64,000 bases of DNA, taken from the NCBI RefSeq assembly GCF_006386545.1, contig NZ_SWAR01000008.1, forward strand, positions 62,001 to 126,000, in the 5' to 3' direction. This document shows, in pieces, positions 44,883-62,809 of the stretch. Under the pieces are notes generated by a model. That model was not told the DNA's origin. It saw nothing but the letters and a program-made list of their open reading frames with translations, and searched no databases. Each line of letters starts with the position of its first letter. Position 1 is the stretch's first letter. This stretch comes from Methylibium rhizosphaerae. Its GTDB lineage: Bacteria > Pseudomonadota > Gammaproteobacteria > Burkholderiales > Burkholderiaceae_C. The position numbers and the translations under genes were made by a program.

Positions 44883-45010
44883 GCTTCGGACCATGAGCGA
44901 GGGCGCCGCCAGGCATACCCTGGCCTGAGGTATCGACGGCTCAGCCCGAACGAACGGAGAGAGTGGCCGCTCCTCGCGAGCAAGGCGCCAGGCCCACAGG
45001 CGAGGCGCCC

Positions 45011-45024
45011 TTGACGCGCGTCAA
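45011..45024 (+). promoter_or_regulatory. CRP/FNR-type box before the universal stress protein gene
   Basis: TTGACGCGCGTCAA is a perfect palindrome of TTGAC-N4-GTCAA form. It lies 47 bp before the ATG at 45071. CAAGAT at 45047-45052 is at the distance expected for the -10 of a promoter activated from -41.5. It is the first of five such boxes between here and 62032. Confidence 0.7.
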
Positions 45025-45070
45025 ACGTGCCGGGGCGGTGCGCACGCAAGATGCCTCCCATCCCCGACGA

Positions 45071-45520
45071 ATGACGACCATGTATCGCCATCTGCTCGTG
45101 CCGGTGGACGGCACGTTGTTCTCAGAGACCGCCATGCGCAGCGGCGTGCAGCTGGCCCATGCCATGGCGGCCCGCGTCACCGGCCTCATCGTCGAGCCCG
45201 AGGCATCGCTGGGCTCGGGCCATTCGGCTTCGCACTACCTCGAAACGCTGCACGAACACGCCGGCCAGCAGCTGCGGCATGCCAGCCAGGTCATGTCGCG
45301 CTTCGCGGCCATGGCGCAGGCGCAGGGCGTGCCATTCAGCGGCCACTACGTGTGCACCGGTCACATCGAAGACGCCATTGCCCAGATCGCGCGCCGCGAA
45401 GGCTGTGACCTGGTGGTGATGAGCACGCACGCACGCACCGGCCTGGACGGCGTGCTCAAGGGCTCGCGGACCAAGGGCGTGCTCGCCCGCACGCAGCTGC
45501 CGGTGCTGGTGCTGCGCTGA
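45071..45520 (+). CDS. Universal stress protein (UspA family)
   Basis: The 149-residue protein starts MTTMYRHLLVPVDGTLFSET, the normal UspA opening with the Asp of the nucleotide site. It ends with CDLVVMSTHARTGLDGVLKG and LPVLVLR, the family C-terminus. Usp genes are frequent members of anaerobic (FNR/ANR-type) regulons, and an FNR-type box lies upstream. The ATG at 45080 is an alternative start. The protease, MBL and PatZ-like genes follow closely, so one transcript is likely. Confidence 0.85.
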   Translation: MTTMYRHLLVPVDGTLFSETAMRSGVQLAHAMAARVTGLIVEPEASLGSGHSASHYLETLHEHAGQQLRHASQVMSRFAAMAQAQGVPFSGHYVCTGHIEDAIAQIARREGCDLVVMSTHARTGLDGVLKGSRTKGVLARTQLPVLVLR

Positions 45521-45544
45521 AGAGACCCCACACAAGGACCTCGC

Positions 45545-46942
45545 ATGAACACCCCACCTGACACTTCGGCGCAGCTCACCTTCCTCGGCGCCGCCGGCAC
45601 CGTGACCGGTTCGCGCTACCTGCTCGAGGCGGCGGGCCACCGGGTGCTGGTGGACTGCGGCCTGTTCCAGGGCTACAAGACGCTGCGCATGCGCAACTGG
45701 GAACCGCTGCCCGTGGGCGCGCGCCACATCGACGCGGTGGTCCTCACCCATGCGCACCTCGACCACAGCGGCTACCTGCCGCGGCTGGTGCGCGACGGCT
45801 TCAAGGGCCGGGTGTGGTGCACGCCGGCCACGCGCGCGCTGTGCGAGGTGCTGCTGCCCGATTCCGGCCACCTGCAGGAAGAAGATGCGGCCTTCGCCAA
45901 CCGGCATGGCTTCTCCAAGCACAAGCCTGCCGAGCCGCTCTATACCCGGGCGGACGCCCTCGCCAGTCTGGAGCGTTTCGAGACGGTGCCGTTCGGCCAG
46001 GGCTTCGAGCCGGCCCCCGGCATGCAGGTGCGGCTCGCTCCTCAGGGGCACATCCTGGGCGCCGCCAGCGCGCGCTTCGAGCTGGCAGGCACCAGCATCA
46101 CCTTCAGCGGCGACATCGGCCGGCCGCACGACCCCATCATGCGGCCGCCGCAGCCTCTGCAGGCCTGCGACTGGCTCGTCACCGAATCCACCTACGGCGA
46201 CCGCGAACACCTGGCCGAAAACCTGGAGGACGCACTCGGCGCGGTGATCCGCCGCGTGGCCGCACATGGGGGCGTGGTGGTGATCCCGGCCTTCGCCGTG
46301 GCGCGCGCGCAGGCGCTGCTGCACCACATCGCGAGGCTGCGCCAGCGCGAGGCGATCCCGCACCTGCCGGTGTATCTGGACAGCCCGATGGCCATCGACG
46401 TGACCGGGCTCTACAAGCACTTCCGGCGCGAACACCGGCTCAGTGACGAGGAATGCCATGCCATGTGCGGCGGCGCGACCTTCGTGCGCACGGTCGAAGA
46501 CTCGAAGCGGCTGAGCGCGCGGCGCGGGCCGATGGTCATCGTCTCGGCCAGCGGCATGGCCACCGGCGGGCGGGTGCTGCACCACCTCAAGGCCTTCGCG
46601 TCCGACCACCGCAATGCCATCGTGCTGGCCGGCTACCAGGTGCCCGGCACACGAGGGGCCACGCTGGCCGCCGGCGCGCCCAGCGTACGCATCCACGGCA
46701 TCGACGTGCCGGTGCGGGCCGAGGTGGTGCAGCTCGAAGGCGCCTCTGCACATGCCGATGCGAGCGAGATCATGGACTGGCTGCGCACCGCGCCGCAGGC
46801 GCCGCGCGGCGTGTTCGTCACGCATGGCGAGGCGGGCGCCGCCGACGCGCTGCGCCAGCGCATCGAGCGCGAGCTCGGCTGGTCGGCGCGGGTGCCGATG
46901 TTCCGCGACCGCATCGACCTGGGCAGCGGGGCGTGGTCGTGA
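45545..46942 (+). CDS. Metallo-beta-lactamase/beta-CASP RNase-like hydrolase
   Basis: The 465-residue protein has the di-zinc motif LTHAHLDHSGYLPRL near residue 64. The beta-CASP insert follows, with GHILGAASARFEL near 163, SGDIGRPHDP near 183, VIPAFAVARAQALLHH near 244 and VSASGMATGGRVLHHL near 333. The layout matches prokaryotic RNA exonuclease/mRNA 3'-processing homologues (YsH1/CPSF73-like). It lies 24 nt after the usp gene, and its stop overlaps the next GTG start by 4 nt. A role in RNA turnover during anaerobiosis is plausible but inferred. Confidence 0.85.
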   Translation: MNTPPDTSAQLTFLGAAGTVTGSRYLLEAAGHRVLVDCGLFQGYKTLRMRNWEPLPVGARHIDAVVLTHAHLDHSGYLPRLVRDGFKGRVWCTPATRALCEVLLPDSGHLQEEDAAFANRHGFSKHKPAEPLYTRADALASLERFETVPFGQGFEPAPGMQVRLAPQGHILGAASARFELAGTSITFSGDIGRPHDPIMRPPQPLQACDWLVTESTYGDREHLAENLEDALGAVIRRVAAHGGVVVIPAFAVARAQALLHHIARLRQREAIPHLPVYLDSPMAIDVTGLYKHFRREHRLSDEECHAMCGGATFVRTVEDSKRLSARRGPMVIVSASGMATGGRVLHHLKAFASDHRNAIVLAGYQVPGTRGATLAAGAPSVRIHGIDVPVRAEVVQLEGASAHADASEIMDWLRTAPQAPRGVFVTHGEAGAADALRQRIERELGWSARVPMFRDRIDLGSGAWS

Positions 46943-48039
46943 GCCTGTGGCCGCTCGCCTCGCGGGCGTGGCTGGCAGCAGCCTTCGCCAGCATGCCGGC
47001 CGCCTGCGCCACGTGGCAGCCGGCCCCGCAGCCATCGGCTGTCGTCTCGTTGGCAGCGCCCGGTCCGGCCGACTTCGCCGAGGCGGTCAACCGCGGCGTT
47101 CATGCCGCGGTGGGCGTCTACGGCGTCGGCAAGAAGCTCAACCTGGCCGATGCCGACCCGGTGTCGCGGCCGGCCATCGGCATGGCGCCCGAACAGCTCC
47201 AACCCGACCCCGGAACAGGCGACCCGGCGTCCATCGGCTCGGGATTCTTCGTCGACGCGCAGGGCTACCTGGTCACCGCGGCGCACGTGGTCACCAGCGT
47301 GCAGTCCATCGTGGTCAAGCTGGCCGACCAGCGCGTGCTGGCCGCGCAGCTGGTGGGGGTGGATGAAGACGCCGACATCGCGCTGCTGAAGGTGCCGCTG
47401 GCCGAGCCCATCGTGCCGCGCTTCGGCAGCTCGCTGTCGCTGAGCCCGGGCGACTGGGTGCTGGCGCTGGGGGAGCCCTACGGGCTGGAGCGCACCGTGG
47501 TCGCCGGCATCGTGGGCGGTGCGCGCCGACATTTCATCGAAGACAGCGATGTGCTGTTCATCCAGGCCGACCTGGCGCTCAACCCGGGCAACTCCGGCGG
47601 GCCGCTGCTCGACACCTCCGGCGCCATCGTCGGCATGAATTCGCGCATCGTGGTGGGCGGCATCGGCGCACCGGGCGTGGCGCTTGCCATCCCCATCGAG
47701 ATCGTCCTGCAGCTGGCCGCCGAGCTGCGCAGCGGCGGCGGCCGCCAGCGGCCACGGCTGGGCGCGGCGTTCGAAGATGTGCCGCCGCAGCTGGCGCTGG
47801 CCGCCGGCCGGCACTACAGCAGCGGCGCGCTCGTGAAGGCGGTGTCGCCTGGCAGCCTGGCCGAACGCCTGGGCCTGAAGGCGGGCGACATCGTGGTCGG
47901 CATGAACCGCCTGCCGGTGGGCGACAGCGCCGAGCTGGTGCGGCTGCTGCTTGCGTGGCGCAGCGTGCCCGGCACGGTGATGACCGTGTACCGCGAAGGC
48001 GGCTATCGACAACTCGCATGGCCAGGGAGCCCGCATTGA
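46939..48039 (+). CDS. Trypsin-like serine protease with PDZ domain (HtrA/DegP-like lipoprotein)
   Basis: The 366-residue protein has a lipoprotein-like leader (AAAFASMPAAC), then a protease domain with His in LVTAAHVVTS near 114, Asp in DEDADIALLKV near 144 and Ser in NPGNSGGPLLD near 219, so the triad is complete. A PDZ domain covers about 280-360 (ALVKAVSPGSLAERLGLKAG). HtrA proteases degrade misfolded envelope proteins. The GTG start overlaps the MBL stop (GTGA), and its own stop overlaps the PatZ-like TTG, so it is tightly coupled on both sides. Confidence 0.85.
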   Translation: MSLWPLASRAWLAAAFASMPAACATWQPAPQPSAVVSLAAPGPADFAEAVNRGVHAAVGVYGVGKKLNLADADPVSRPAIGMAPEQLQPDPGTGDPASIGSGFFVDAQGYLVTAAHVVTSVQSIVVKLADQRVLAAQLVGVDEDADIALLKVPLAEPIVPRFGSSLSLSPGDWVLALGEPYGLERTVVAGIVGGARRHFIEDSDVLFIQADLALNPGNSGGPLLDTSGAIVGMNSRIVVGGIGAPGVALAIPIEIVLQLAAELRSGGGRQRPRLGAAFEDVPPQLALAAGRHYSSGALVKAVSPGSLAERLGLKAGDIVVGMNRLPVGDSAELVRLLLAWRSVPGTVMTVYREGGYRQLAWPGSPH

Positions 48040-50705
48040 GTGTCCGCAACCTCGAAGCCTTGTTCCGGCCCGCCTCGGTGGCGGTGATCGGTGCTTCCGA
48101 CCGGGCCGGCAGCATCGGCGCGCTGGTCATGCGCAACCTGCTGCAAGGCGGCTTCGCCGGCCCTGTCTGGCCGGTGAACCCGAAGCGCGACACCGTGGCC
48201 CGCCTGCGGGCCTGGGCCGGCGTCGGCCAGCTACCGCAGGCGCCCGACCTCGCGATCATCTGCACGCCGGCGCCCACGGTGCCTGGCCTGGTCGCCGAGC
48301 TGGGGCGCAAGGGCACGCGTGCCGCGGTGGTGCTGACCGCCGGCCTCAAGGCCGCGCAACGACCCGGCGGGCCGACACTCGAGCAGGCCATGCTCGATGC
48401 GGCACGGCCCCACCTGCTGCGCATCCTCGGCCCCAATTGCGTGGGGCTGCTGGTGCCCGGCGTGGGGCTCAATGCCAGCTTCGCGCACCTGGCAGCGCGG
48501 CCCGGGCGGCTGGCCTTCGTGTCGCAATCAGGCGCGCTGGCCACCGCCATGCTCGACTGGAGCGACGCGCGCGGCATCGGCTTCTCGCACTTCATCTCGC
48601 TGGGCGACAGCGCCGACGTCGACTTCGGCGACGTGCTCGACTACCTGGGCAGCGACGCGGGCACGCGCGCCATCCTCATGTACGTCGAGTCGGTGAAACA
48701 CGCGCGCAAGTTCATGTCGGCCGCGCGGGCCGCCGCCCGCAACAAGCCGGTGCTGGTGGTGAAGGCCGGCCGCGCGCCCGAGGGCGCGCGTGCGGCGGCC
48801 TCGCACACCGGCGCGCTGGCCGGCTCCGATGCGGTGTTCGATGCGGCGGTGCGCCGCGCCGGCATGCTGCGCGTGCTCACCCTGGAAGACCTGTTCGATG
48901 CGGCCGAGACGCTGGCACACGCACAGCCGCTGCACGGCGAGCGGCTGGCCATCGTCACCAACGGCGGCGGGGCCGGCGTGCTGGCCGCCGACGCGCTGTC
49001 GGTGGCCGGGGGCGCGCTCGCGCCGCTGGCGGCCGCCACGCTGCAGCGGCTCGACGCTGCGCTGCCGGCCACCTGGTCGCATGCGAACCCGGTGGACATC
49101 ATTGGCGATGCCCCCGTGGAGCGCTACACCGCGGCACTGCAGGCGTTGCTCGAAGCGCCGGAGGCCGATGCGGTGCTCTTCATGCACGCGCCCACTGCTG
49201 TAGTGCCCAGCCCCGAGATCGCAGACGCCTGCCTGCCCCTCATGCGCGCGGCCGCCAAGCCGGTGCTGACCTGCTGGCTCGGCGGCACGGCGGTGGCGCC
49301 GGCCCGCGCCGCCTGCGCCGAAGCCGGCGTGCCCACCTACGAAACCCCGGAGCGGGCCGCGCAGGCCTTCCTGCATCTGGTGCAGTACCGGCGCAACCAG
49401 GAAGCCCTGCTGCAGGCGCCCACCGCGGGCGGCGATGGCGCCGCCCCCGACGTGGCAGCAGCCCGCGCGTTGCTGGAGGCCGCCCTGGCCGACGGCCGCG
49501 ACGAGCTGAACGAAACCGAGGCGAAGGCCTTGCTGGCCGCCTATGGCGTGCCGGTGGTCGCCACCCGCAGCGTGCCCGGCACCGAAGCCGCACTGGCCGC
49601 GGCGGCGGAGATCGGCTACCCGGTGGTGCTCAAGATCCTGTCGCCGCAGATCTCGCACAAGTCCGACGTGGGCGGCGTGGCGCTCGACCTGGGCTCCGCC
49701 GCCGAGCTGCAACAGGCAGCCGACGCCATGCTGGCCCGCGTGGCCAGGCTGAGGCCCGACGCCCACGTCGCCGGCTTCACCGTCCAGGCCATGGTGCGCC
49801 GCCCGCGTGCGCACGAGCTGATCGTGGGCCTGGCCAGCGATGCGGTGTTCGGCCCGGTGGTGCTGTTCGGGCAGGGCGGCACGGCGGTCGAAGTGGTGGC
49901 CGACCGCGCGATCGCCTTGCCGCCGCTGAACACGAACCTTGCAGCCGACCTGGTGGGCCGCACCCGCGTGGCCCGGTTGCTGGCGGGCTACCGTGACCGC
50001 AGCCCGGCCGACCTGCGAGCCGTGCACGAGGCCATGGTCAAGGTGTCGCAGATGGCCTGCGACCTGCCGCAGCTCGCCGAGCTCGACATCAATCCGCTGC
50101 TGGCCGACGAACACGGCGTGCTCGCGCTCGATGCCCGGGTGAAGCTGCAGCCTGCGCAGGGTGCGGTGCCGCTGGCGATCCGTCCGTACCCGGCGCAGCT
50201 CGAGGAGCCGGTGCAGCTCGGCGGCGAGGCGGTGCTGCTGCGCCCCATCCGCCCGGAAGACGAGCCGCTGCTGCGCTCGCTGTATGCGAGCGCCACGCCC
50301 GAGGAGATGCGGCTGCGGTTCTTCCTGGCCCGCCGGGAGGTGCCGCGTTCGGAGCTGGCCCGCTACAGCCAGATCGACTACGACCGCGACATGACCTTCG
50401 TCGCGGTGGCCCCGGCGCACGGCGAGGCCGGGCTGCTGGGCGAGGTGCGCTCGGTGTGCGACCCCGACGGCGAGCAGGCCGAGTTCTCGATCCAGGTGCG
50501 CCATGGCTGGCAGGGGCAGGGCATCGGCCGCCTGCTGCTGTCCAAGCTGCTGCGCTACCTGCGCGAGCGCGGCGTGCGGCGGCTGGTGGGCCAGTGCCTG
50601 CCGGCCAACGATGCGATGGTGGCGCTGGCCCGCGGCCTCGGCTTCGAGTCGCGGCGGCACCCGGTCGAGGATGTGGTGCTGCTGCAGCTCGAACTGCGGC
50701 ATTGA
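48036..50705 (+). CDS. PatZ-like acyl-CoA synthetase (NDP-forming)/GNAT acetyltransferase fusion
   Basis: The 889-residue protein has the order of E. coli PatZ (protein lysine acetyltransferase): CoA-binding domain (SVRNLEALFRPASVAVIGAS), ligase domains, ATP-grasp (about 490-700, starting ETEAKALLAAYGVPV) and C-terminal GNAT domain (about 725-885, with HGWQGQGIGRLLLSKLLRYL). Unlike PatZ as I remember it, where Asn takes the place, residue 257 is His in AAASHTGALAGSDAVFDAA, the phospho-histidine position of ADP-forming acetyl-CoA synthetases. The TTG at 48036 has GGGAG upstream, overlaps the protease stop, and aligns with the PatZ N-terminus; an ATG at 48018 is an alternative. Confidence 0.85.
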   Translation: MSVRNLEALFRPASVAVIGASDRAGSIGALVMRNLLQGGFAGPVWPVNPKRDTVARLRAWAGVGQLPQAPDLAIICTPAPTVPGLVAELGRKGTRAAVVLTAGLKAAQRPGGPTLEQAMLDAARPHLLRILGPNCVGLLVPGVGLNASFAHLAARPGRLAFVSQSGALATAMLDWSDARGIGFSHFISLGDSADVDFGDVLDYLGSDAGTRAILMYVESVKHARKFMSAARAAARNKPVLVVKAGRAPEGARAAASHTGALAGSDAVFDAAVRRAGMLRVLTLEDLFDAAETLAHAQPLHGERLAIVTNGGGAGVLAADALSVAGGALAPLAAATLQRLDAALPATWSHANPVDIIGDAPVERYTAALQALLEAPEADAVLFMHAPTAVVPSPEIADACLPLMRAAAKPVLTCWLGGTAVAPARAACAEAGVPTYETPERAAQAFLHLVQYRRNQEALLQAPTAGGDGAAPDVAAARALLEAALADGRDELNETEAKALLAAYGVPVVATRSVPGTEAALAAAAEIGYPVVLKILSPQISHKSDVGGVALDLGSAAELQQAADAMLARVARLRPDAHVAGFTVQAMVRRPRAHELIVGLASDAVFGPVVLFGQGGTAVEVVADRAIALPPLNTNLAADLVGRTRVARLLAGYRDRSPADLRAVHEAMVKVSQMACDLPQLAELDINPLLADEHGVLALDARVKLQPAQGAVPLAIRPYPAQLEEPVQLGGEAVLLRPIRPEDEPLLRSLYASATPEEMRLRFFLARREVPRSELARYSQIDYDRDMTFVAVAPAHGEAGLLGEVRSVCDPDGEQAEFSIQVRHGWQGQGIGRLLLSKLLRYLRERGVRRLVGQCLPANDAMVALARGLGFESRRHPVEDVVLLQLELRH

Positions 50706-50715
50706 GGCGCGTCAA
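50702..50715 (+). promoter_or_regulatory. CRP/FNR-type box before the Met-rich lipoprotein gene
   Basis: TTGAGGCGCGTCAA matches TTGA-N6-TCAA and overlaps the stop codon of the PatZ-like gene. CAGAGT at 50738-50743 lies at exactly the same distance from the box centre (29.5 bp) as TAGAGT does from the NarX-like box. It would start a new transcript for the lipoprotein, ATPase and MgtE genes. Confidence 0.6.
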
Positions 50716-50778
50716 GGTCGCGCGTCGTGCTTCGGCGCAGAGTGCGTGCACCACCCGAATCACTCGCTAGGAGCTGCC

Positions 50779-51057
50779 ATGAAGACCCTCGTCTGCTGCA
50801 TCGTGTTCGCCTCTGCACTGGCCGGCTGCGCGCAGCCGGGGCCGCCCCGCCACTCGGGCATGCAGGCGGCGAAGGACGGCGCCGCGGGCAGCGAGTGCGC
50901 CAGCCACATGAAGGACATGAAGGCCGGTCACGAGCGCATGCCGATGCATGCCGCGGCAGGCGCCAGTGCGCCGCAAGATCATGGGCAGGCCCCGGCGCAA
51001 GGCGCCGGCGGCATGATGGCCATGCAAGGCGAATGCAAGATGATGCCCAAGCCTTGA
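50779..51057 (+). CDS. Met/His-rich small lipoprotein, possible metal binder
   Basis: The 92-residue product has a lipoprotein signal with SALAGCAQP and a mature part with many Met, His and some Cys (SHMKDMKAGHERMPMHAAAG, GGMMAMQGECKMMPKP). Such composition suggests soft-metal binding (copper or similar) in the periplasm. No family is recognised. AGGAGC lies before the ATG at 50779. The stop overlaps the ATPase TTG by 4 nt. Confidence 0.7.
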   Translation: MKTLVCCIVFASALAGCAQPGPPRHSGMQAAKDGAAGSECASHMKDMKAGHERMPMHAAAGASAPQDHGQAPAQGAGGMMAMQGECKMMPKP

Positions 51058-53717
51058 GGCAGCCACATGCCGAGGCGCCGCCTGCCGGCGGCGCCGGCCA
51101 CCGGCAGGTCGACGGTGCGCACCTGCACAGCGCCGACCTCGTGGCCGAAAGACTCGAGGTCGACCCGCGCAACGGCCTGGCGCCGCCCGAAGCAGCGCAG
51201 CGGCGTGCCGTGCACGGCGAGAACCGGTTGCCCGAGCCGCCGCCGCGCGGCCTGCTGCGCCGCGTCCTCGACCAGTTCCGCGACTTCATGGTGCTGGTGC
51301 TGCTGGCGGCGGCCGTGCTGTCCGGATTCGTGGGCGATGCGGCCGACACCGCGGCCATCGTCGTGATCGTGCTGCTCAATGCCGCCATCGGACTCACCCA
51401 GGAATGGCGGGCCGAGCGCGCCCTCGAAGCCCTGCAGCGGTTGGCCACGCCGCAGGCCACCGTGCGCCGCGGCGGCCTGTCGCAATGCATCGAGACCGCC
51501 CAGCTGGTGCCCGGTGACGTGGTGCTGCTGGAGGCCGGCAACCTGGTGCCGGCGGACCTGCGGCTGCACGAGGTGGCGCAACTGCGTGTCGACGAATCGG
51601 CGCTCACCGGTGAATCGGCCACCGTCGAAAAACACAGCGAAGCGCTGCCGCACGGCGAACACGCATTGGGCGACCGCCTCAACATGGCCTTCAAGGGCAC
51701 GCTGGTCACCCATGGGCGGGCCGAAGGCCTGGTGGTGGCCACCGGCGTGCACACCGAGCTGGGCCGCGTGGCCGGGCTGCTGCGCGACACCGAGGAGCGC
51801 AGCACGCCGCTGCAGCGCCGGCTCGCCGACTTCGGCAAGCGGCTGTCGCTGGTCGTGCTGGCGATCTGCGCGGTGATGTTCGGCGTGGGCGTGCTGCTGC
51901 GGGGCGAGCCGCTGTTGCTGATGGCACTCACCGCCATCAGCCTGGCGGTGGCGGCCATCCCCGAGGCGCTGCCGGCGGTGGTGACGGTGCTGCTGGCGCT
52001 CGGGGCCCGCCGCATGGTCCAGGTCAACGCGCTGGTGCGCCGGTTGCCCTCGGTCGAGACGCTGGGCTCGGTGAGCGTGATCTGCTCCGACAAGACCGGC
52101 ACGCTCACCTGCAACCGCATGCGCGTGCAGGCGCTGGAACGCTGGGGCCGCCTTGAGCCGTCCGCCGTGTGGCAGGCCGCGCTGCTGTGCAACGACGCCA
52201 GCCTGAATGCCGAAGGCTGCTGGAGCGGCGACCCGACGGAAACCGCGCTGGCCGAGGCTGCGCAGGCAGCCGGCGTCGATGCCGCGGCGCTGCGGCGGGA
52301 CCTGCAGCGCCGGCATGAATGGCCCTTCGACTCGCAGCGCAAGCGCATGAGCACGCTGCATGGGCAGCCGGGCGACTGGCTGGTCGTCACCAAGGGGGCG
52401 CCCGAAAGCGTGCTGCCGCTGTGCACCGCGGTGGCCACCGCACAAGGCGAACAGCCGCTCGACGTGGCGGCTGCGCTGGACACCGCGGCCGACCTCGCGG
52501 CCCGCGGCATGCGGGTGCTGGCCATCGCCCGGCGCCGCTGGCTGCACGACCCGGCGGCACTGCAGGCGCCTGCGCTGGAGCAGGGCCTCGTGCTGCTCGG
52601 GCTGGTGAGCCTGGCCGACCCGCCGCGCCCTGAAGCACTGGAGGCGGTGACGGCCTGCCGCAGCGCCGGCATCGTGCCGGTCATGATCACCGGCGACCAC
52701 CCGGCCACCGCGCTCGCCATTGCCCGGCAGCTCGGCATCGCACCGGCCGAAGGCGAGGGTGGCGCCGGGGAACACGCGGTCCTCACCGGCGCCCAGCTCG
52801 CCCGGCTCGACGACGCGAGCCTCGCGCGAGCGGTGCGCGACGTGCGGGTGTATGCGCGGGTGGACCCCGCGCAGAAGATCCGCATCGTGCAGGCGCTGCA
52901 GTCGCACGGCCAGTTCGTGGCGATGACCGGCGACGGCGTGAACGACGCGCCGGCCTTGAAGGCGGCCGACATCGGCGTGGCCATGGGCCGCGGCGGCACC
53001 GACGTGGCGCGGCAGGCGGCCAGCCTGGTGCTGCTGGACGACAACTTCGCGAGCATCGTGGCGGCGGTGCGCGAAGGCCGGCGCATCTTCGACAACATCC
53101 GCAAGTTCGTGCGCTATGCGATGACCGGCAACTCCGGCGAGATCTGGACGCTGTTCCTCGCGCCGCTGCTGGGGCTGCCCATCCCATTGCTGCCGCTGCA
53201 CATCCTGTGGGTCAACCTGGTGACCGACGGTTTGCCCGGCCTCGCGCTGGCCGCCGAGCCGGCCGAGCGGGGCGTGATGCAGCGCCCGCCGCGCGCCCCC
53301 GGAGAGAGCGTGCTGGGCGGCGGTCTGTGGCAGCACACGCTGTGGGTCGGGCTGCTCATCGCGGCGCTGTGCCTGGGCGTGCAGGCCTGGGCGCTGCAGG
53401 CCGGCATGCCGTGGCAGACCATGGTGTTCTCGGTGCTCACGCTGGCGCAGATGGCGCACGTGCTGGCCATCCGCTCCGAGACCGACTCGCTGTTCTCGCT
53501 CGGGCTGCGCAGCAACCGGCCGCTCGCCGCGGCGGTGCTGCTCACGCTCGGGTTGCAGCTGGCGGTCGTCTACCTGCCCGCGCTGCAGGCGGTGTTTCGC
53601 ACCGAGGCGCTGTCGGCGCCGGAACTGGCGATCTGCGCGGCGGCGGCCTCGGTGGTCTTCGTGGCGGTCGAGGCCGAGAAGGCCCTGCGCCGGCGCCGCG
53701 CAGGGCGTGCTGCATGA
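51054..53717 (+). CDS. P2A-type (Ca2+/cation) P-type ATPase
   Basis: The 887-residue pump has the P-ATPase core: LTGESATVEKH near 184, the phosphorylated Asp in CSDKTGTLTCN (Asp346), KGAPES near 447 and TGDGVNDAPALKAADIG near 625. The transport-site residues of SERCA-type Ca2+ pumps are kept: Glu in AIPEALPAV (M4), Asn and Glu in GNSGEIWTLF (M5), Asn and Asp in NLVTDGLPGLAL (M6). So Ca2+ or a similar ion is more likely than copper. The TTG start overlaps the lipoprotein stop (TTGA). The stop overlaps the MgtE-like ATG. Confidence 0.88.
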   Translation: MRQPHAEAPPAGGAGHRQVDGAHLHSADLVAERLEVDPRNGLAPPEAAQRRAVHGENRLPEPPPRGLLRRVLDQFRDFMVLVLLAAAVLSGFVGDAADTAAIVVIVLLNAAIGLTQEWRAERALEALQRLATPQATVRRGGLSQCIETAQLVPGDVVLLEAGNLVPADLRLHEVAQLRVDESALTGESATVEKHSEALPHGEHALGDRLNMAFKGTLVTHGRAEGLVVATGVHTELGRVAGLLRDTEERSTPLQRRLADFGKRLSLVVLAICAVMFGVGVLLRGEPLLLMALTAISLAVAAIPEALPAVVTVLLALGARRMVQVNALVRRLPSVETLGSVSVICSDKTGTLTCNRMRVQALERWGRLEPSAVWQAALLCNDASLNAEGCWSGDPTETALAEAAQAAGVDAAALRRDLQRRHEWPFDSQRKRMSTLHGQPGDWLVVTKGAPESVLPLCTAVATAQGEQPLDVAAALDTAADLAARGMRVLAIARRRWLHDPAALQAPALEQGLVLLGLVSLADPPRPEALEAVTACRSAGIVPVMITGDHPATALAIARQLGIAPAEGEGGAGEHAVLTGAQLARLDDASLARAVRDVRVYARVDPAQKIRIVQALQSHGQFVAMTGDGVNDAPALKAADIGVAMGRGGTDVARQAASLVLLDDNFASIVAAVREGRRIFDNIRKFVRYAMTGNSGEIWTLFLAPLLGLPIPLLPLHILWVNLVTDGLPGLALAAEPAERGVMQRPPRAPGESVLGGGLWQHTLWVGLLIAALCLGVQAWALQAGMPWQTMVFSVLTLAQMAHVLAIRSETDSLFSLGLRSNRPLAAAVLLTLGLQLAVVYLPALQAVFRTEALSAPELAICAAAASVVFVAVEAEKALRRRRAGRAA

Positions 53718-54715: not shown

Positions 54716-54733
54716 GCGCGTTCGGTGGCGGTC

Positions 54734-54747
54734 TTGACCACCGTCAA
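54734..54747 (+). promoter_or_regulatory. CRP/FNR-type box before moaA
   Basis: TTGACCACCGTCAA lies 40 bp before the ATG at 54775. A promoter activated from -41.5 would start near 54782, between two in-frame ATGs (54775 and 54787). Either the true moaA start is 54787 or later, or the start site lies further upstream. Confidence 0.65.
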
Positions 54748-54774
54748 GGACTTCGAGGGCCGGTTCACGACACG

Positions 54775-55905
54775 ATGCCACCCGAGATGAAAGCCCGCGT
54801 CATTCCCCTGGTCGACGAGCGCATGCGCCGCATGGCTGCGCATGCGCTCCTGCATGACGAACCGGCCGGCAGCGTGCCGGTGCACGACACCCTCGGCCGC
54901 CCGCTGCACGACCTGCGCATCTCGGTGACCGACCGCTGCAACTTCCGCTGCGGCTACTGCATGCCGCGCGAGCTGTTCGCCGGGCAGGGCCTGTTCATGC
55001 CGCGTTCCGAACTGCTCGACTTCGACGAGATCACGCGGCTCGCGTCGGTGTTCGTGAGCCAGGGCGTGCGCAAGATCCGCCTCACCGGCGGAGAGCCCCT
55101 GCTGCGGCGCGACGTCGAACGGCTGGTCGGCATGCTGGCCATGCTGCGCACACCCGCCGGCGAGCCGGTGGAGCTGACGCTCACCACCAACGGTTCGCTG
55201 CTGGCGCGCAAGGCGGCCGCGCTGAAGGCCGCGGGACTCCACCGGGTGACAGTCAGCCTCGATGCACTGGACGACGCCGTGTTCCGCCGCATGAACGACG
55301 CCGACTTCCCGGTGGCCGAGGTGCTGCGCGGCATCGACGCCGCACTGGCCGCGGGCCTTTCGCCGCTGAAGGTCAACACCGTGGTGCAGCGCGGCGTGAA
55401 CGACCATGAGGTCGAGGCCATCGTGCGGCACTTCCGCCACACGCCGGTGGTGCCGCGCTTCATCGAGTACATGGATGTGGGCGGCAGCCATGGCTGGCGC
55501 ATGGACCAGGTGGTGCCGTCGGCCGAACTGCTGCAGCGGCTCGCCCGCCGCCATGCGCTGCTGCCGATGGAGCCGGCCCGCAAGGGAGAAACCGCCAGCC
55601 GCTGGCGCCATGCCGACGGCGCAGGCGAGATCGGCTTCATCAGCAGCGTGACGCAGGCCTTCTGCGGCGACTGCAACCGTGCGCGGCTGTCGGCAGACGG
55701 CCGCCTCGTCACCTGCCTGTTCGGCCGGCACGGGCTGGACCTGCGTGCGCTGCTGCGCGAGGCGGGTGCCGGCGACGCGCAGCTGGGCGCGGCGATCCGC
55801 GGCACCTGGCGCGCACGCAGCGACCGCTACTCGGAACAGCGCGGCAGCCAGCCGCCGGGCGATGCCGGCGACGGCCGCGTCGCGATGCACTACATCGGCG
55901 GCTGA
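54775..55905 (+). CDS. moaA: GTP 3',8-cyclase (molybdenum cofactor synthesis)
   Basis: MoaA is a radical-SAM enzyme that starts molybdopterin synthesis. The 376-residue form has the SAM cluster ligands in [11 protein letters not shown] near 62, [10 protein letters not shown] near 105, and the C-terminal cluster in [19 protein letters not shown] near 300. The extra N-terminal 35 residues are unlike standard MoaA; ATG 54787 or one of the Met codons at 54823 and 54832 are alternative starts. Nitrate reductase needs this cofactor, which fits the NarXL-like and NarK genes nearby. Confidence 0.9.
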
Positions 55906-55926
55906 GCCGCCGGCTCGAATCCGGGC

Positions 55927-55940
55927 TTGACGAGTGTCAA
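55927..55940 (+). promoter_or_regulatory. CRP/FNR-type box before the NarX-like kinase gene
   Basis: TTGACGAGTGTCAA is followed by TAGAGT at 55963-55968. The box centre would be at -41.5 if transcription begins at 55975, which is the A of the ATG. This predicts a leaderless or nearly leaderless mRNA. The spacing matches class II FNR activation. Confidence 0.7.
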
Positions 55941-55974
55941 GCCGCCCGCGGGGGGCGGCCCGTAGAGTGGTTTC

Positions 55975-57858
55975 ATGAACACGCACCGCCGCACCGTGGC
56001 ATCGAAGCTGTTTGCCATCGGACTCTGCCTGCTCGCGCTGGCGCTGGTGTCCATCGCGCTGACGCTGTGGGTGTCGTGGCAGCTCGAAGGGGGGGCCGCG
56101 GCGGTCAACGAGGCGGGGCGCATGCGCATGCTGAGCTACCGCATGGCCCTGCAGCAGGAGGGCAGCGAGGCCGCGCAGGTGCGTGCCACCTTCGAGGTGC
56201 TCGACGCGAGCCTGCAGCGCCTTGCCGCAGGCGAGCCGTCGCGGCCGCTGTTCGTGCCCTGGAACGACCGTACCCGCGAGACGTTCTCGGCGGTGCAGTC
56301 GCGCTGGCAGGCGCTGCGCCCGCTGTGGCTCGGTGGCCACCCGCCGACGGTGGCCGAGCTCGATGGCTTCGTGCTGATGATCGACGGTTTCGTCGGGGCC
56401 ATCGAGCACAACCTGTCGCGCTGGACCGACGTGCTGCGCGCCTTCCAGCTCACCATGGTGGCGCTGGCCATCGGCAGCGCAGTGGCGCTGCTCTACACCG
56501 CGCACCTGGTGGTCTTCGAGCCGCTGCAGCGGCTGCAGCAGGGCCTGCAGCGGGTGAGCGACAAGGATTTCTCGGCCCGCATCGAGCTCGACTCGGGCGA
56601 CGAATTCAGCCAGCTGGCCGATGGCTTCAATCGCATGGCAGGGCACCTGCAGGCGCTGTATGGCGAGCTCGAAGCCAAGGTCGCCGAGAAGACCGAACGC
56701 CTGGAAGTGAAGCGGCAGCGTCTGGCTGCCTTGTACGAGGTGAGTGCCTTCATCGCGGGCGCCGAGACGCTGCCGGCGCTGGCCCAGGGCGTGGCGGGGC
56801 TGGTGCGCCGCATCGCCCGGGCCGACGCGGTGGCGGTGCGCTGGTCCGACGAGGCCAACGAGCGCTACCTCATGCTGGCGGCAGACGGCCTGCCCGAGGT
56901 GCTGGCGCAGGACGAGCAATGCCTGCCCTCGGGCCACTGCCACTGCGGGCAGCCGGCAGACGGCGCGAAGCTGCGCGTCATCCCGCTGCACGTCGAAGGA
57001 GCGGCGGCCGAAGGGCAATGCGGGCGGCTGGGGTTTCGCACGCTGCTGTCGGTGCCGGTGGGCACGCACCACCGCATGCTCGGCGAGATGGACCTGTTCT
57101 TCCGCCGGCCGGTGACGCTGGCCGACGAGGAGAGGTCTCTCTATGAGACGCTCGCCAGCCACCTGGCCAGCGGCATCGAGAGCCTGCGCGCGGCGGCGCT
57201 CGAGAAGGAGGGCGCGGTGGCGCAGGAGCGCACCCTGCTGGCGCAGGAGCTGCACGACTCCATCGCGCAGTCGCTGGCCTTCCTGAAGATGCAGGTGGCA
57301 CTGCTGCGCGAATCCATGAGGCGCCATGACGCGGCCGCCATGGAAAGAACGGTGCAGGAGCTCGACGCCGGTGTGCGGGAAAGCTATGCCGACGTGCGGG
57401 AGCTGCTGCTGCACTTCCGCACCCGCGCCAGCGAGGAAGACATCACCGCGGCGCTGCGCACCACCTTGTCGAAGTTCGAGCACCAGTCGGGCGTGCTCAC
57501 GCAGCTCACCAGCGAAGGCCACGGCATCGCGCTGCCGGCCGACCTGCAGATCCAGGTGCTGCACATCGTGCAGGAGGCGCTGTCCAACGTGCGCAAGCAT
57601 GCCGGGGCCAGCCGCGTGCAGCTGCATGTGAGGCAGTCGCCGCACTGGAGCTTCGAGATCGCCGACGACGGCTGCGGCTTCGATCCCGGCGAGGACCGCA
57701 GCGAGATGCATGTGGGGCTCAGCATCATGCGCGAGCGTGCGCAGCGCATCGGCGCGCAGGTGGCGGTGCAGTCCCGCCCCGGCGCCGGCACGACGGTGGT
57801 GCTGAGCCTGGCGCCGGCCGCTGTCGTGAACTCCGAGGAAAGGTCCGAGGCCCTATGA
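55975..57858 (+). CDS. NarX-like sensor histidine kinase
   Basis: The 627-residue kinase has a first membrane helix (about 12-33). The P-box-like segment NEAGRMRMLSYRMALQQEGS near 43-62 is the nitrate-binding signature of NarX/NarQ sensors. A second helix (about 160-182), a HAMP domain, a GAF domain (about 250-400), a HisKA_3 domain with His427 in LAQELHDSIAQSLAFLK and a HATPase domain (about 525-615, ADDGCGFDPG) follow. It should phosphorylate the response regulator whose start overlaps its stop by 4 nt. An FNR-type box and -10 lie immediately upstream. Confidence 0.88.
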   Translation: MNTHRRTVASKLFAIGLCLLALALVSIALTLWVSWQLEGGAAAVNEAGRMRMLSYRMALQQEGSEAAQVRATFEVLDASLQRLAAGEPSRPLFVPWNDRTRETFSAVQSRWQALRPLWLGGHPPTVAELDGFVLMIDGFVGAIEHNLSRWTDVLRAFQLTMVALAIGSAVALLYTAHLVVFEPLQRLQQGLQRVSDKDFSARIELDSGDEFSQLADGFNRMAGHLQALYGELEAKVAEKTERLEVKRQRLAALYEVSAFIAGAETLPALAQGVAGLVRRIARADAVAVRWSDEANERYLMLAADGLPEVLAQDEQCLPSGHCHCGQPADGAKLRVIPLHVEGAAAEGQCGRLGFRTLLSVPVGTHHRMLGEMDLFFRRPVTLADEERSLYETLASHLASGIESLRAAALEKEGAVAQERTLLAQELHDSIAQSLAFLKMQVALLRESMRRHDAAAMERTVQELDAGVRESYADVRELLLHFRTRASEEDITAALRTTLSKFEHQSGVLTQLTSEGHGIALPADLQIQVLHIVQEALSNVRKHAGASRVQLHVRQSPHWSFEIADDGCGFDPGEDRSEMHVGLSIMRERAQRIGAQVAVQSRPGAGTTVVLSLAPAAVVNSEERSEAL

Positions 57859-58541
57859 ACGCTCCAGCCCCGATCCGCCTGCTGGTGGTGGACGACCACA
57901 CGCTGTTCCGCCGCGGCCTCATCGCGCTGCTGGCCCAGTACGCCGACCTGCAGGTGGTGGGCGAAGCGGCCGACGCCGGCGAAGCGCTGCGGCGCGCGCA
58001 GGCGCTGCAGCCCGACCTGGTGCTGCTGGACAACCACCTGCCCGGTGCGCGCGGCGTCGATGCACTGCCGGACCTTCGGCAGGCGGCCCCCGCAACCCGC
58101 GTGCTGATGCTCACCGTCAGCGAAGACGAACAGGACCTCGCCGACGCGCTGCGCAACGGCGCGCAGGGCTATGTGCTCAAGACGGTGGACGGCGAGGTGC
58201 TGGCCCAGGCCATACGCCGCACCGTGCGCGGAGAGTCGGTGGTGAGCCCCGAGCTGACCGGCAAGCTGGTGACGGCGTTCCGCGCAATGAGCGGCAGCCC
58301 GTCGCCTGCCGCTGCCGAGCCGGCGGCCGCCGCCGATCCGCTGGCAGTCCTTTCACCGCGCGAGCAGGAGATCCTGCGCTGCATCGCCCGAGGTGCCAGC
58401 AACAAGGAGATCGCGCGCGGGCTGGACATCGCCGAGACCACGGTGAAGATCCATGTGCAGCACATCCTGCGCAAGCTCAACCTGAACTCCAGGGTCCAGG
58501 CCGCAGTGTTTGCGACGCAGCGCCGCGAGCAGGCAGCCTAG
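57855..58541 (+). CDS. NarL-like LuxR-type response regulator
   Basis: The 228-residue regulator has a receiver domain with acidic pocket VVDDHTLFRRGL and the phospho-acceptor Asp59 in LVLLDNHLPG. It ends with a LuxR-type helix-turn-helix (about 165-225: LSPREQEILRCIARGASNKE, IARGLDIAETTVKIHVQHIL). NarL/NarP proteins activate nitrate reductase and NarK genes. Its last bases overlap the stop of the convergent GGDEF-EAL gene (58538-58541). Confidence 0.9.
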   Translation: MNAPAPIRLLVVDDHTLFRRGLIALLAQYADLQVVGEAADAGEALRRAQALQPDLVLLDNHLPGARGVDALPDLRQAAPATRVLMLTVSEDEQDLADALRNGAQGYVLKTVDGEVLAQAIRRTVRGESVVSPELTGKLVTAFRAMSGSPSPAAAEPAAAADPLAVLSPREQEILRCIARGASNKEIARGLDIAETTVKIHVQHILRKLNLNSRVQAAVFATQRREQAA

Positions 58542-61500
58542 ACCTCGGCCGGCGCCTGCAGCGCCAGCAACGCCTGCAGGGCGGCGGCGTCTTCAGGCCG
58601 GCCGAACCGATAACCCTGCAGCTCGTCGCAGCCGCGGCGCACCAGGTAGTCGTGCTGGGCCGCCGTTTCCACGCCCTCGGCCACCACCCGCAGGTGCAGC
58701 CGGTGCGCCAGTGCGATCACGGCGTCGACGATGGCCGAGCCGTCCGGGACGTCGTCGATCGTGCGCACGAACGACCGGTCGATCTTCAGCACGTCGATCG
58801 GGAAGCGCCGCAGGTAGCCCAGGCTGGAGTAGCCGGTGCCGAAGTCGTCGAGCGACAGCACCAGGCCCAATGTCTTGAGGCGATGCAGCATGGCCGCGGT
58901 GGCTTCGGGCCGCTCCATCAGCATGCCCTCGGTGAGTTCGACCTCCAGGCAGTGTCCCGGCACGCCATGGCGCCGCAGGGCGTCTGCGATCACCTGGTCC
59001 AGGTTGCCGGCGGCGAACTGCCGGGCGGCCACGTTGACGGCCACGCGCAGCACCGGCAGACCCTGGTCGAGCCACTGCCGCAGTTGCCGGCACGCCTGGT
59101 CGATCACCCAGTCGCCGATCGACAGAATGAGGCTGCTGCGCTCGGCCAGCGGAATGAACTGGCCGGGCGGCACCAGCCCCGCGCTGTTGCGGTTCCAGCG
59201 CAGCAGCGCCTCGGCACCGCAGATGGCGCCGCTGGAGGCGTCCACCTTGGGCTGGTAGTGCAGCAGCAGTTCGTCTCGCTCGATGGCACGGCTCAGGGCC
59301 GCCTCGAGCTCGAGCTTGGCCACGGCGTCGCTGTTGAGGTCGCCGGTATAGAAGCAGAAGCGGTTGCGGCCTTCATCCTTGGCCCGGTACATGGCCGCGT
59401 CGGCATCGCGCAGCATCTCCACGGCGGTGGTGCTGCCGTCCTCTGGATGCACGCTGATGCCGATGCTCGCGGTCACGTAGGCGTCGCGGCCGCAGGACAG
59501 CGACACCGGCTCGGCCACGGCTGCCAGCAGGTCGCGCGCCAGCGCGGCGGCGGCCGGCGCGTCGTGCAGCGACTCGATCACCACGAGGAACTCGTCTCCG
59601 CCCAGGCGGCCCAGCGTGTCTTCGGTGCGCAGGCGGGCCTTGAGCCGCTGTGCCACGCACACCAGCAGCTCGTCTCCGGAAGGGTGGCCCAGGCTGTCGT
59701 TGACCGTCTTGAACCCGTCCAGGTCGATGTACAGCACTGCCGAGCGCGTGCCGTGCCGCTGCGCACGCGCCAGCGCATGCTCCAGGCTCTGCTGCAGCAG
59801 GCGGCGGTTGGGCAGGTTGGTCAGCGGGTCGTAGTGGGCCATGCGTTCGAGCTCGGCCTCGCCGCGCTTGAGCTGAGAGATGTCGGTGAACACCGCCACG
59901 TAGTGCGTCGCCTGGCCCTGCGGGTCCTTCACCTGGTTGACGGTGAGCCACTGCGGGTAGGTCTCGCCGTTCTTGCGGCGGTTCCAGATCTCGCCCTGCC
60001 AGTGGCCCTGCCGGGCGATCGACGCCCACATGGCCCGGTAGAAGCCCGCATCGTGCTGGTCCGACCGCAGCAGCGTTGGCGTGCGGCCAAGAACCTCTTC
60101 CTGGGTATAGCCGGTGATGTCGACGAATGCGCGGTTGACGCTGCGGATGCGCTTGCGAGCGTCGGTGATCAGCATGCCGTCGCGCGTGTGCTCGAAGGCC
60201 ATCGACCACTGCCGGTGCAGCTCCTCCGAACGTTTGCGCTCGGTGATGTCGCGGCTGATGCCGAACACGCCGATGACGCGGCCGTCGGCCTCGCGCAGCG
60301 GACCCTTGGTGTCCAGCAGCACCCGTTCGCCGGCGGTGGTCTGCAGCAGGGTCTCATGGGTGATGGGGCGCCCGGCCTGTGCGGCAGCGCGGTCGTGCTG
60401 CTTCACGACGGCCGCCTGCGCGGGCGGGAACAGCAGGAAGTCGTCGTGCCCGAGGATCTCTTCGGCCGATCGGCCGGTGAGCCGGCAGGCTTCCCGGTTG
60501 ATGAAGAGGTAGCGGCCTTGCAGGTCCTTCGCGAAGATCGCGTCGCTCGAGCCGTTGGCGATCGCGTCGAGCAGGTTGAGGGCGCGCAGGCGCTCGTCCT
60601 GCTGGGCCTGCTGCAGCCGTGCGCTGCGCAGCTCGCGGCGCTGCAGCACGCTGTGGACGACGATGCCTGCGGCCAGCAGCGCCAGCCCGTTCACCAGGGC
60701 GATCCAGACGGCGTCCTGCCAGATCTGCGCGTCGATCGGTTTCGCGGGCACGTGGGTGGCCACGAACCAGTCGCTGCCGGGCACCTGCACCGGCACCGCC
60801 AGCGACTCGACGCCCTCACCGCTGTCGCCCAGCCCCCGCAGCGCCACGCCGGGCGCGGCGGCGCCCTGGCGGAACACCTGGGCCACCGCCAGGGCAGCGT
60901 CGTCCGCCGGCACGCGGGTCGGCTGGGCGGCGTCGCCGAACAGCACGAGGTCGCTGCCGTCTCGGCGCAGCAGCAGCACGCCGGCGCCCGCTTCGGCGCC
61001 TGACCAGGTGTGCACGCGCGGCTGCAGCTCGCGCTGCGGATCGGCCCGCAGCACAAGCACCAGGGGCGGCTGGCCCCGGCCGGCAGCCACGGGGACGGCC
61101 ATCTCGAAGCTCAGGGTGGAATCCGCGCTCGACAGGAAGAGTCCGGTGTCCCGGACTTCACCGCTCGCCAGGGCCTGCTGCGCGCTCCGCTGGGCGGCGG
61201 GTTCCAGGGCGGCGGCTGCCTCGCCTTCGACCAGCAGCGTGTCGCCGTTGGCGTCGAGCAGCCGCACGCTCGTGTACTGGGCCGCGAAGAGGATGGCTCG
61301 CAGGTGGCCGGCAAGGCGCTCGCGGCTTGCCTCGTCGGCCTGGGTCCGCCATTGCTCCAGGTAGCGCTGCAGGTCCCGGTCGCGATGCAGCAGCTGCATG
61401 TCGTCGCGCCGAGCCTCGATCCACTGCGACACGACCCGGGCCTTCAGGTCGGCCACCGTGTGCAGCCTGGCCGCGGCCTGGGCGTGCACTTCGCGGGCGG

Positions 61501-61849
61501 AGCGGGTCACCCCCACCATGCCGGCCAGCAGCACGACGGCCGCCACCGAGGCCAGCACCCAGGCCAGCATGTGCGGATGCGGGGCCCCGGCATCGTCAAC
61601 GGCCGGCAGTGGCGCCGGCAACTGGCGGCTGGCGGCGCGCCTGACCACCAGGTACAGCAGTGCGCTGGTGGCCAGCACGAAGGCGAAACCCTTGTAGACG
61701 CCCGCGGCGGAGAGCACGGCGACGTCACGGGTGAGGCTGAGCAGGAGGCGGTCGGAGAACAGGATCCACAGCAGCCCGAACACGGCATAGCCTGCAGCGG
61801 TACGCAGCGCCGAGCCGTGCACGCTGGAGGGCGACAGGAGATTGCGCAT
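58538..61849 (-). CDS. Membrane GGDEF-EAL protein with PAS domains
   Basis: The 1103-residue protein has N-terminal membrane helices, an extracytoplasmic sensor region (about 120-360), another helix near 385, two PAS domains (about 425-670), a GGDEF domain near 680-840 and an EAL domain near 855-1095. GRLGGDEFLVV is intact and has the inhibitory RxxD (RTED) five residues upstream. EALLRWN, DDFGTGYSSLGYL and AEGVETAAQ are intact, so both cyclic-di-GMP synthesis and breakdown are possible. GAGGA precedes the ATG at 61849; the frame is open 28 codons further. It is convergent with the NarL-like gene. Confidence 0.88.
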   Translation of the reverse strand: MRNLLSPSSVHGSALRTAAGYAVFGLLWILFSDRLLLSLTRDVAVLSAAGVYKGFAFVLATSALLYLVVRRAASRQLPAPLPAVDDAGAPHPHMLAWVLASVAAVVLLAGMVGVTRSAREVHAQAAARLHTVADLKARVVSQWIEARRDDMQLLHRDRDLQRYLEQWRTQADEASRERLAGHLRAILFAAQYTSVRLLDANGDTLLVEGEAAAALEPAAQRSAQQALASGEVRDTGLFLSSADSTLSFEMAVPVAAGRGQPPLVLVLRADPQRELQPRVHTWSGAEAGAGVLLLRRDGSDLVLFGDAAQPTRVPADDAALAVAQVFRQGAAAPGVALRGLGDSGEGVESLAVPVQVPGSDWFVATHVPAKPIDAQIWQDAVWIALVNGLALLAAGIVVHSVLQRRELRSARLQQAQQDERLRALNLLDAIANGSSDAIFAKDLQGRYLFINREACRLTGRSAEEILGHDDFLLFPPAQAAVVKQHDRAAAQAGRPITHETLLQTTAGERVLLDTKGPLREADGRVIGVFGISRDITERKRSEELHRQWSMAFEHTRDGMLITDARKRIRSVNRAFVDITGYTQEEVLGRTPTLLRSDQHDAGFYRAMWASIARQGHWQGEIWNRRKNGETYPQWLTVNQVKDPQGQATHYVAVFTDISQLKRGEAELERMAHYDPLTNLPNRRLLQQSLEHALARAQRHGTRSAVLYIDLDGFKTVNDSLGHPSGDELLVCVAQRLKARLRTEDTLGRLGGDEFLVVIESLHDAPAAAALARDLLAAVAEPVSLSCGRDAYVTASIGISVHPEDGSTTAVEMLRDADAAMYRAKDEGRNRFCFYTGDLNSDAVAKLELEAALSRAIERDELLLHYQPKVDASSGAICGAEALLRWNRNSAGLVPPGQFIPLAERSSLILSIGDWVIDQACRQLRQWLDQGLPVLRVAVNVAARQFAAGNLDQVIADALRRHGVPGHCLEVELTEGMLMERPEATAAMLHRLKTLGLVLSLDDFGTGYSSLGYLRRFPIDVLKIDRSFVRTIDDVPDGSAIVDAVIALAHRLHLRVVAEGVETAAQHDYLVRRGCDELQGYRFGRPEDAAALQALLALQAPAEV

Positions 61850-62174
61850 GCGGTCCTCGCGAAAGCTCAGTGGCGGTGCACACCGCGGCCGGTGAAGCTG
61901 CAGCGTGGCAGGGCGTCTGGCGCAGATGGGCATGGGCGTTTGCTCCCCGCAGACGCAAGCCGCTGGTGGCGCCCGCGGTTCACGTGCGGTATGTCATCAC
62001 GCAGCAAGGCGGGGCCGTTTGACGGCCGTCAAGGCAATCGACGAAACAGGGGTGGCGCCTCTTGCTCTTTCGGGCAGTCGCGCGCTATTGCGCCGTGCGA
62101 AGGCGGCAGCGTTTGCCCTGGCTCAAGACGCGCGCCATGCCGGCCGGGCGACACTGCCTGGCCTTGCATGCGCC
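61850..62174. other. Divergent intergenic region between the GGDEF-EAL and YitT genes
   Basis: These 325 bases hold one perfect CRP/FNR-type box at 62019-62032 and no supported gene. On the minus strand TGACAT (61996-61991) sits at the class II -10 distance from the box; on the plus strand the equivalent position is GC-only. The box may therefore mainly serve the GGDEF-EAL gene. Confidence 0.5.
62019..62032. promoter_or_regulatory. CRP/FNR-type box between GGDEF-EAL and YitT genes
   Basis: TTGACGGCCGTCAA is a perfect palindrome including the central GGCC, so it reads the same on both strands. It lies 170 bp from the minus-strand start and 143 bp from the YitT start. It is the fifth box of the set. 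Confidence 0.65.
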
Positions 62175-62789: not shown

Positions 62790-62795
62790 GGCCGG

Positions 62796-62809
62796 TTGAC
62801 GCAGCGCAA
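62796..62809 (+). promoter_or_regulatory. Degenerate FNR-like half-site upstream of the NarK gene
   Basis: TTGACGCAGCGCAA keeps the left half TTGAC but has CGCAA in place of GTCAA. It lies 156 bp before the NarK ATG, close to the YitT stop. It could be a weak site for the same regulator, or chance. Confidence 0.3.

Follow-up and report, generated by a model that had tools for sequence, protein, structure and literature searches.

FNR-type boxes around a nitrate-respiration locus of Methylibium rhizosphaerae and a predicted leaderless, FNR-driven narX

The window, the whole 64-kb stretch of Methylibium rhizosphaerae DNA analysed here, carries from position 45011 onward a series of stress, transport and nitrate-respiration genes with FNR-type palindromes between them. 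Genes for tRNA-Ala, tRNA-Glu and tRNA-Asp lie just ahead of this region (43914-44224), and most 2-kb steps beyond 46 kb have a G+C content raised to 0.70-0.74. The first box, TTGACGCGCGTCAA (45011..45024; like the boxes below, a motif match with no strand assigned unless one is given), stands upstream of a gene for a universal stress protein (USP; 45071..45520, plus strand, start at 45071 or 45080; Pfam Usp 4.2e-24, tested from 45080). Between them is a -10-like CAAGAT (45047-45052), with a predicted +1 at 45059, computed as the box centre plus 41.5. Three further plus-strand genes follow, encoding a metallo-beta-lactamase/beta-CASP/RMMBL RNase-like protein (45545..46942; Pfam Beta-Casp 9.7e-36, RMMBL 2.4e-19), an HtrA/Deg-like protease with trypsin and PDZ domains (46939..48039; Pfam, and NCBIfam Do family at 3.6e-72, below its cut-off) and an NDP-forming acyl-CoA ligase fused to a GNAT acetyltransferase (48036..50705; Pfam, with NCBIfam matches below cut-offs). 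The second box, TTGAGGCGCGTCAA (50702..50715), overlaps the stop codon of the ligase gene and is followed by CAGAGT (50738-50743, predicted +1 at 50750). Beyond it, again on the plus strand, lie genes for a Met/His-rich, lipoprotein-like protein of 92 aa with an AGGAG site in front (50779..51057), a P-type cation-transporting ATPase whose start is not settled (51054..53717; Pfam, best NCBIfam match the IIA/PMR1 type at 714 bits, under the cut-off of 798) and a CBS plus MgtE-type transporter (53714..54715; Pfam).

The nitrate-related part begins with the third box, TTGACCACCGTCAA (54734..54747), upstream of moaA, which encodes GTP 3',8-cyclase (54787..55905, plus strand, start at 54787 preferred and 54775 possible; NCBIfam TIGR02666 at 371 bits, above its cut-off of 284, tested from 54775). 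The fourth box, TTGACGAGTGTCAA (55927..55940, plus strand), identified by motif match and orthologue comparison, precedes a gene for a NarX/NarQ-like nitrate sensor kinase, narX (55975..57858, plus strand; Pfam PilJ, HAMP, GAF and HisKA_3; NCBIfam NarQ 288 and NarX 222 bits, both below cut-off), which is followed by a narL-like response regulator gene (57855..58541, plus strand; Pfam, and NCBIfam NarL at 214 bits against a cut-off of 250). A dCache-PAS-GGDEF-EAL protein is encoded on the minus strand (58538..61852; Pfam), and the fifth box, TTGACGGCCGTCAA (62019..62032), lies between this gene and the divergent gene of a YitT-family membrane protein (62175..62789, plus strand; Pfam). A one-mismatch box, TTGACGCAGCGCAA (62796..62809, plus strand), which has no significance test of its own, stands upstream of a narK1-like MFS transporter gene that continues beyond the window end (62965..64000, plus strand). 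The next 20 kb hold a narK2-like gene, narGHJI, genes for a PpiC-type isomerase and carbonic anhydrase, a nitronate-monooxygenase-like gene, ubiU, ubiV (both products exceed their NCBIfam cut-offs) and a ribonucleotide reductase gene; a further box in this stretch (L016:10266), with a -10 and a normal leader, lies upstream of the nitronate-monooxygenase-like gene. NarG, H, J and I are thus found together with NarX/L-type regulators in one nitrate-respiration locus. The names NarK1 and NarK2 are our assumption from position and recall, as Pfam gives MFS for both. Pfam bore out the gene functions named in the sequence-only reading; it gave no match for the 92-aa protein encoded at 50779.

Exact matches to TTGA-N6-TCAA occur in the whole window only at 45011, 50702, 54734, 55927 and 62019, in agreement with the five positions first proposed and with the claim that the first 45 kb holds no similar box (zero matches). 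Shuffled versions of the window contained a mean of 0.21 matches and at most 2, and none of 100 shuffles reached five. Because the motif is rare genome-wide (62 in 6.17 Mb on 208 contigs, against 22 for the reversed control), five boxes in 17 kb form a cluster: at the genome rate 0.17 would be expected per 17,022 bases (Poisson P ~1e-6), and when 62 sites were placed randomly, some span of that length held at least five in 25 of 20,000 trials. A chance origin of the cluster is rejected by all three approaches. Each box had been said to stand in a gap, which holds for the four that are entirely non-coding, in a region (44883-64000) with a non-coding fraction of 4.8% by a hand-made gene list, whereas the box at 50702 shares 4 of its 14 bases with the preceding gene's stop codon. 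The stricter form TTGAC-N4-GTCAA occurs 19 times in the genome (reversed control, 2), four of them in the window. The sequence-only reading would have been undermined by a motif equally frequent inside genes; we found 15 of the 19 strict copies in gaps, three reaching 4 bases into the 3' end of a called gene and one intragenic. This sorting relied on a home-made gene caller trained on 15 genes of the locus and covers the 19 strict copies of the 62 looser motifs.

The spacing between box and promoter had also been described accurately. The class II arrangement, with 29.5 bp from box centre to -10 and the centre at -41.5, is exact on the plus strand for the boxes at 45011, 50702 and 55927, with the -10-like hexamers CAAGAT, CAGAGT and TAGAGT matching TATAAT at 3, 3 and 4 of six positions, respectively. 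For the box at 54734 the best candidate is CACGAT (3 of 6) at 54771, 30.5 bp from the centre. The box at 62019 has a -10-like TGACAT (3 of 6) at 29.5 bp on the minus strand only, pointing to the GGDEF/EAL gene; its use as a YitT promoter was rejected, as that strand has no -10.

Seventeen proteins of the genome match HTH_Crp_2. An FNR is recognised by an N-terminal cysteine cluster and a central cysteine, and the CRP/FNR-family regulator presupposed by the sequence-only reading was identified on this basis as a four-cysteine Fnr (L020; C155:285-1094, minus strand), which has a CSSCNLRELC cluster and a further central Cys. It is the sole candidate with the cysteine cluster that also passes the NCBIfam Fnr cut-off (246 bits against 228). 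Its gene adjoins hemN, and an exact box lies between the two (L079, 1145-1158), a candidate site of autoregulation. Two other proteins, L021 (C145) and L024 (C155), lack the cysteine cluster and have HTH_Crp_2 domains with an E-x-x-S-R recognition helix that we take to be FNR-like. Four strict boxes also lie on C155 (L079 8162, 13192 and 13656; L080 17181). Those at 8162, 13192 and 17181 are each followed by GATTCG, two cNMP-domain proteins are encoded near, and the boxes are possibly sites of another regulator.

At narX, the ATG (55975) coincides exactly with the +1 predicted from the class II FNR promoter geometry and has no Shine-Dalgarno (SD) sequence before it. The box is centred at 55933.5 and the -10 hexamer TAGAGT (55963..55968, plus strand) begins 29.5 bp from that centre and stands 6 nt before the ATG; the predicted transcript start is therefore the A of the start codon. 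This arrangement was followed across 49 neighbourhoods (each from a different genus in the family sample), 80 named loci and the window, 130 in all, from which 105 narX orthologues were kept after 8 were dropped as duplicates and 17 failed a motif filter. The filter did not favour the leaderless reading, because the 17 include loci with an exact box (L120, L121, L125-L130). A TANNNT starting 10-14 nt before the start codon was present in 57 of the 105, and 28 had a box of no more than one mismatch with its centre 39-43 nt ahead of that codon; both features were found in 26, TANNNT only in 31, the box only in two and neither in 46. An SD-like 4-mer preceded the start in nine. Among 599 other ATG starts from the same loci, cleaned of possible duplicate-dropped narX genes, 30 had the TANNNT, three the box and 240 an SD-like 4-mer. 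Counted over offsets from -45 to -6, 53 of 69 TANNNT matches in the orthologues fell at -12 or -13. The result is not carried by a few close relatives, since at 80% identity over 90 bases the 105 orthologues form 98 clusters (24 both, 28 TANNNT only, two box only, 44 neither); the closest named relative among those seen is that of Aquabacterium sp. A7-Y, at 65%. In the 350 nt upstream, 19 of 49 narX orthologues and 6 of 31 narK1 orthologues have an exact box, and none of either has the reversed motif. Some narX orthologues (e.g. L095, L100, L106, L247) have TTAACCT or TAACCT right before the ATG and no FNR box near; they look leaderless without FNR and may be under other control. Comparison and promoter geometry together make an FNR-driven, leaderless narX a well-supported prediction.

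We then searched 299 family genomes for the whole unit, defined as a box, 21-22 nt, TANNNT, x nt and ATG. It was present in 173 genomes for x of 5-7, 57 for 14-16 and 117 for 29-31, with reversed controls in 3, 3 and 4 genomes, so that the leaderless spacing (173) is commoner than the spacing of a normal leader (117). From the first pattern search 30 loci were kept, and their 29 rows comprise six narX genes, seven copper-type P-ATPases of CcoI/FixI-like kind, four open frames under 30 codons that represent chance or non-genes, and 12 others, among them a potassium-channel-like protein, a USP and a succinate CoA-transferase. Three of the seven ATPases were scanned, and all matched copper/heavy-metal ATPase models, as fragments below the cut-offs. 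The genome studied here has three leaderless-spaced FNR units, that of narX and two on C127 (L194, L195). One of the latter precedes a gene for a signal-peptide protein, the other a gene for an ABC-transporter ATPase, where an internal ATG 39 nt further along is another possible start. We tentatively propose, at slightly less than even confidence, that Burkholderiaceae (in the GTDB sense) have an FNR-activated gene set, with narX and a CcoI/FixI-like copper P-type ATPase as its core, locked into a rigid unit of FNR site, -10 and start codon, which would turn oxygen loss into the production of leaderless mRNAs.

Comparative evidence for the other boxes and genes is thinner. In the 49 narX neighbourhoods, a usp, an acs and a P-type ATPase gene were each seen once and the metallo-beta-lactamase gene never, and YitT was nearly absent. 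No box was found within 350 nt upstream of the narX-adjacent homologues of moaA (0 of 3), GGDEF/EAL (0 of 8), usp, acs or ATPase (0 of 1 each). The beta-CASP protein has a homologue at E <= 1e-60 in 29 of 60 genomes, and of the 30 loci, our own included, five show an exact box in the 700 nt upstream and 25 show none. Three ATPase homologues were found in 20 genomes, two with an exact box upstream, and the Aquabacterium homologue is accompanied by USPs and an acyl-CoA ligase gene. Overall, three of the five window boxes have weak or no comparative support. A second cluster with a likeness to the lxa (low-oxygen-activated) locus of Burkholderia cenocepacia (C156; L084, 2161-7434) encodes a USP, a PHB-synthase-like protein, another USP and a BON-like protein, and then has an exact box at 6121; an MgtC/DUF4010 protein gene follows, with its ATG 41.5 bp from the box centre and no TANNNT before it.

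Taken together, the window boxes are in our judgement quite probably targets of the genome's [4Fe-4S]-type FNR, which would drive a leaderless narX and probably the adjoining stress genes. From the motif, its clustering and spacing, the fnr gene and the comparative signature we infer a route in which FNR binding, oxygen response, transcript start and mode of translation are all predictions. When oxygen is absent, FNR would form a dimer that binds TTGAC-N4-GTCAA at -41.5, the class II position, and activates sigma-70 promoters from there. Transcription of narX would begin at the A of its start codon, since the -10 hexamer stands 6 nt ahead of the ATG, and the message would be translated without a leader. 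NarX-NarL would then contribute the nitrate signal for narK and narGHJI. FNR probably also turns on the neighbouring genes for the USP, beta-CASP RNase, protease, acyl-CoA ligase and ATPase, which would make up a micro-oxic stress module similar to the lxa locus. The sequence-only reading is thus upheld in part. Its anaerobic regulon around nitrate respiration is supported: an Fnr is encoded, the nar genes lie in one stretch, and boxes recur upstream of a share of the narX and narK1 orthologues. The accessory genes are mostly missing from the other nar neighbourhoods sampled, and the dormancy programme that it suggested is speculative.

Several other explanations have to be weighed against FNR control. 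The boxes might be used by another CRP/FNR-family protein, for instance an NO-responsive Dnr-like regulator or an FNR paralogue that lacks N-terminal cysteines, and the signal would then be NO or something other than oxygen. The domains and helices of L021 and L024 would fit this, and two Fnr paralogues of Herbaspirillum seropedicae share or divide such sites, according to the accessible part of PMC5934665; nevertheless, only L020 combines the cysteine cluster with an NCBIfam Fnr match, and it has its own box and hemN as neighbour, so that we consider another regulator unlikely. Very improbable, and already disfavoured, is a palindrome excess produced by mutation bias or repeats rather than by binding sites. 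The four C155 boxes do have additional flanking sequence in common and lie close to other cNMP-domain regulators, because of which not every copy of the box is to be counted as an FNR site, and the view that all genomic TTGAC-N4-GTCAA copies are FNR sites is rejected since this group looks different. Yet both forms of the motif far outnumber their reversed controls, most strict copies (15 of 19) are intergenic, and the narX site keeps its distance to the start codon across genera.

The remaining two alternatives concern how much of FNR control applies. Possibly only the narX and narK sites work, those at 45011, 50702, 54734 and 62019 being partly chance or serving other regulators; the box-free homologues beside narX and the ambiguous direction of box 62019 speak for this. 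However, clustering and gap placement are far above chance, USP genes are Fnr targets in Herbaspirillum (available part of PMC5934665), and an exact box precedes two of the three ATPase homologues, once with USP and acyl-CoA ligase genes, which leaves so narrow a regulon an improbable outcome. It is also rather unlikely that narX is not leaderless, its real start codon lying elsewhere or a different promoter being used. Although another in-frame ATG, GTG or TTG occurs within the next 25 codons in 93 of the 105 orthologues, and 46 of the 105 lack the signature, an SD-like 5-mer stands before any such downstream start in only two (before the chosen start in six), sequence conservation sets in about 8 residues past the chosen Met, and the TANNNT offsets peak sharply.

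That FNR governs nitrate respiration is textbook knowledge. Leaderless mRNAs have been described as well, but little is understood of how they are controlled. If true, a conserved, single-purpose geometry that joins an oxygen-controlled promoter to the start codon would provide a naturally inducible system in which to study why some genes retain leaderless messages and whether anoxia favours leaderless translation. If the wider gene set is real, the anaerobic switch would at the same time bring leaderless translation to the nitrate sensor and to the supply of copper for the high-affinity oxidase. The reading would, in addition, correct the annotation of narX start sites in the family.

The regulon itself is largely known already and not specially new, because ChIP-seq and RNA-seq data for Herbaspirillum seropedicae place narXL and two uspA genes under Fnr. 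In the accessible part of that report (PMC5934665), narXL is a direct Fnr3 target, uspA_1 and uspA_2 require both Fnr1 and Fnr3, hemN2...fixIS is a direct Fnr1 target, and the fnr1 promoter is class II with its site centred at -42. This regulon resembles our locus in its betaproteobacterial FNR sites and in its narXL and usp genes; the strict TTGAC-N4-GTCAA form and the nar/usp neighbourhood are what was read here. The available text of PMC5934665 contains no statement on leaderless transcripts in Herbaspirillum. The lxa locus likewise combines USPs with a metallo-beta-lactamase-superfamily protein, and its BON-domain protein has a counterpart in the second cluster on C156. It comprises about 50 genes (BCAM0275-0323), compared with one USP, one beta-CASP protein, a protease, an acyl-CoA ligase and an ATPase beside nar here (as far as the available parts of PMC6127331 and PMC9104464 go). 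Of its hallmark, a large co-induced cluster for USPs, RNA and energy metabolism and transport, only a few matching families are present at our locus. Because of the ATPase genes with boxes, the Herbaspirillum uspA genes and the USP and metallo-beta-lactamase proteins of lxa, a micro-oxic stress module appears the likeliest reading of the accessory genes.

The new element is the leaderless narX under FNR, which the sequence-only reading had missed. Leaderless transcripts described in Burkholderiales begin on the start codon or only a few nt away from it, with an AT-rich promoter directly before it, as predicted for narX, and regulators are over-represented among them (available parts of PMC4603805 and PMC7563307). 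The portions of these two papers at hand name no oxygen-regulated leaderless class; the word 'fnr' occurs in neither paper, and 'narX' not in PMC7563307. Among the matches listed for leaderless and narX in open-licence PMC papers, none was by title on Burkholderiales promoters, and leaderless with FNR, nitrate and Burkholderia returned only a Shigella review; subscription papers lie mostly outside both searches. A gonococcal anaerobically induced transcript that begins with AUG is a small RNA and not a leaderless message (accessible part of PMC3032703), which serves as a warning for our reading of narX. The closest promoter parallel is cld of Ideonella dechloratans, a class II promoter with FNR dependence established by reporter, which like narX has its box near -41.5 and a TTGACTTAAATCAA-type site. 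In cld, however, the FNR site lies 105.5 bp before the start codon and the transcript hence has a leader, whereas narX is predicted to have none (cld as given in the available part of PMC7349173).
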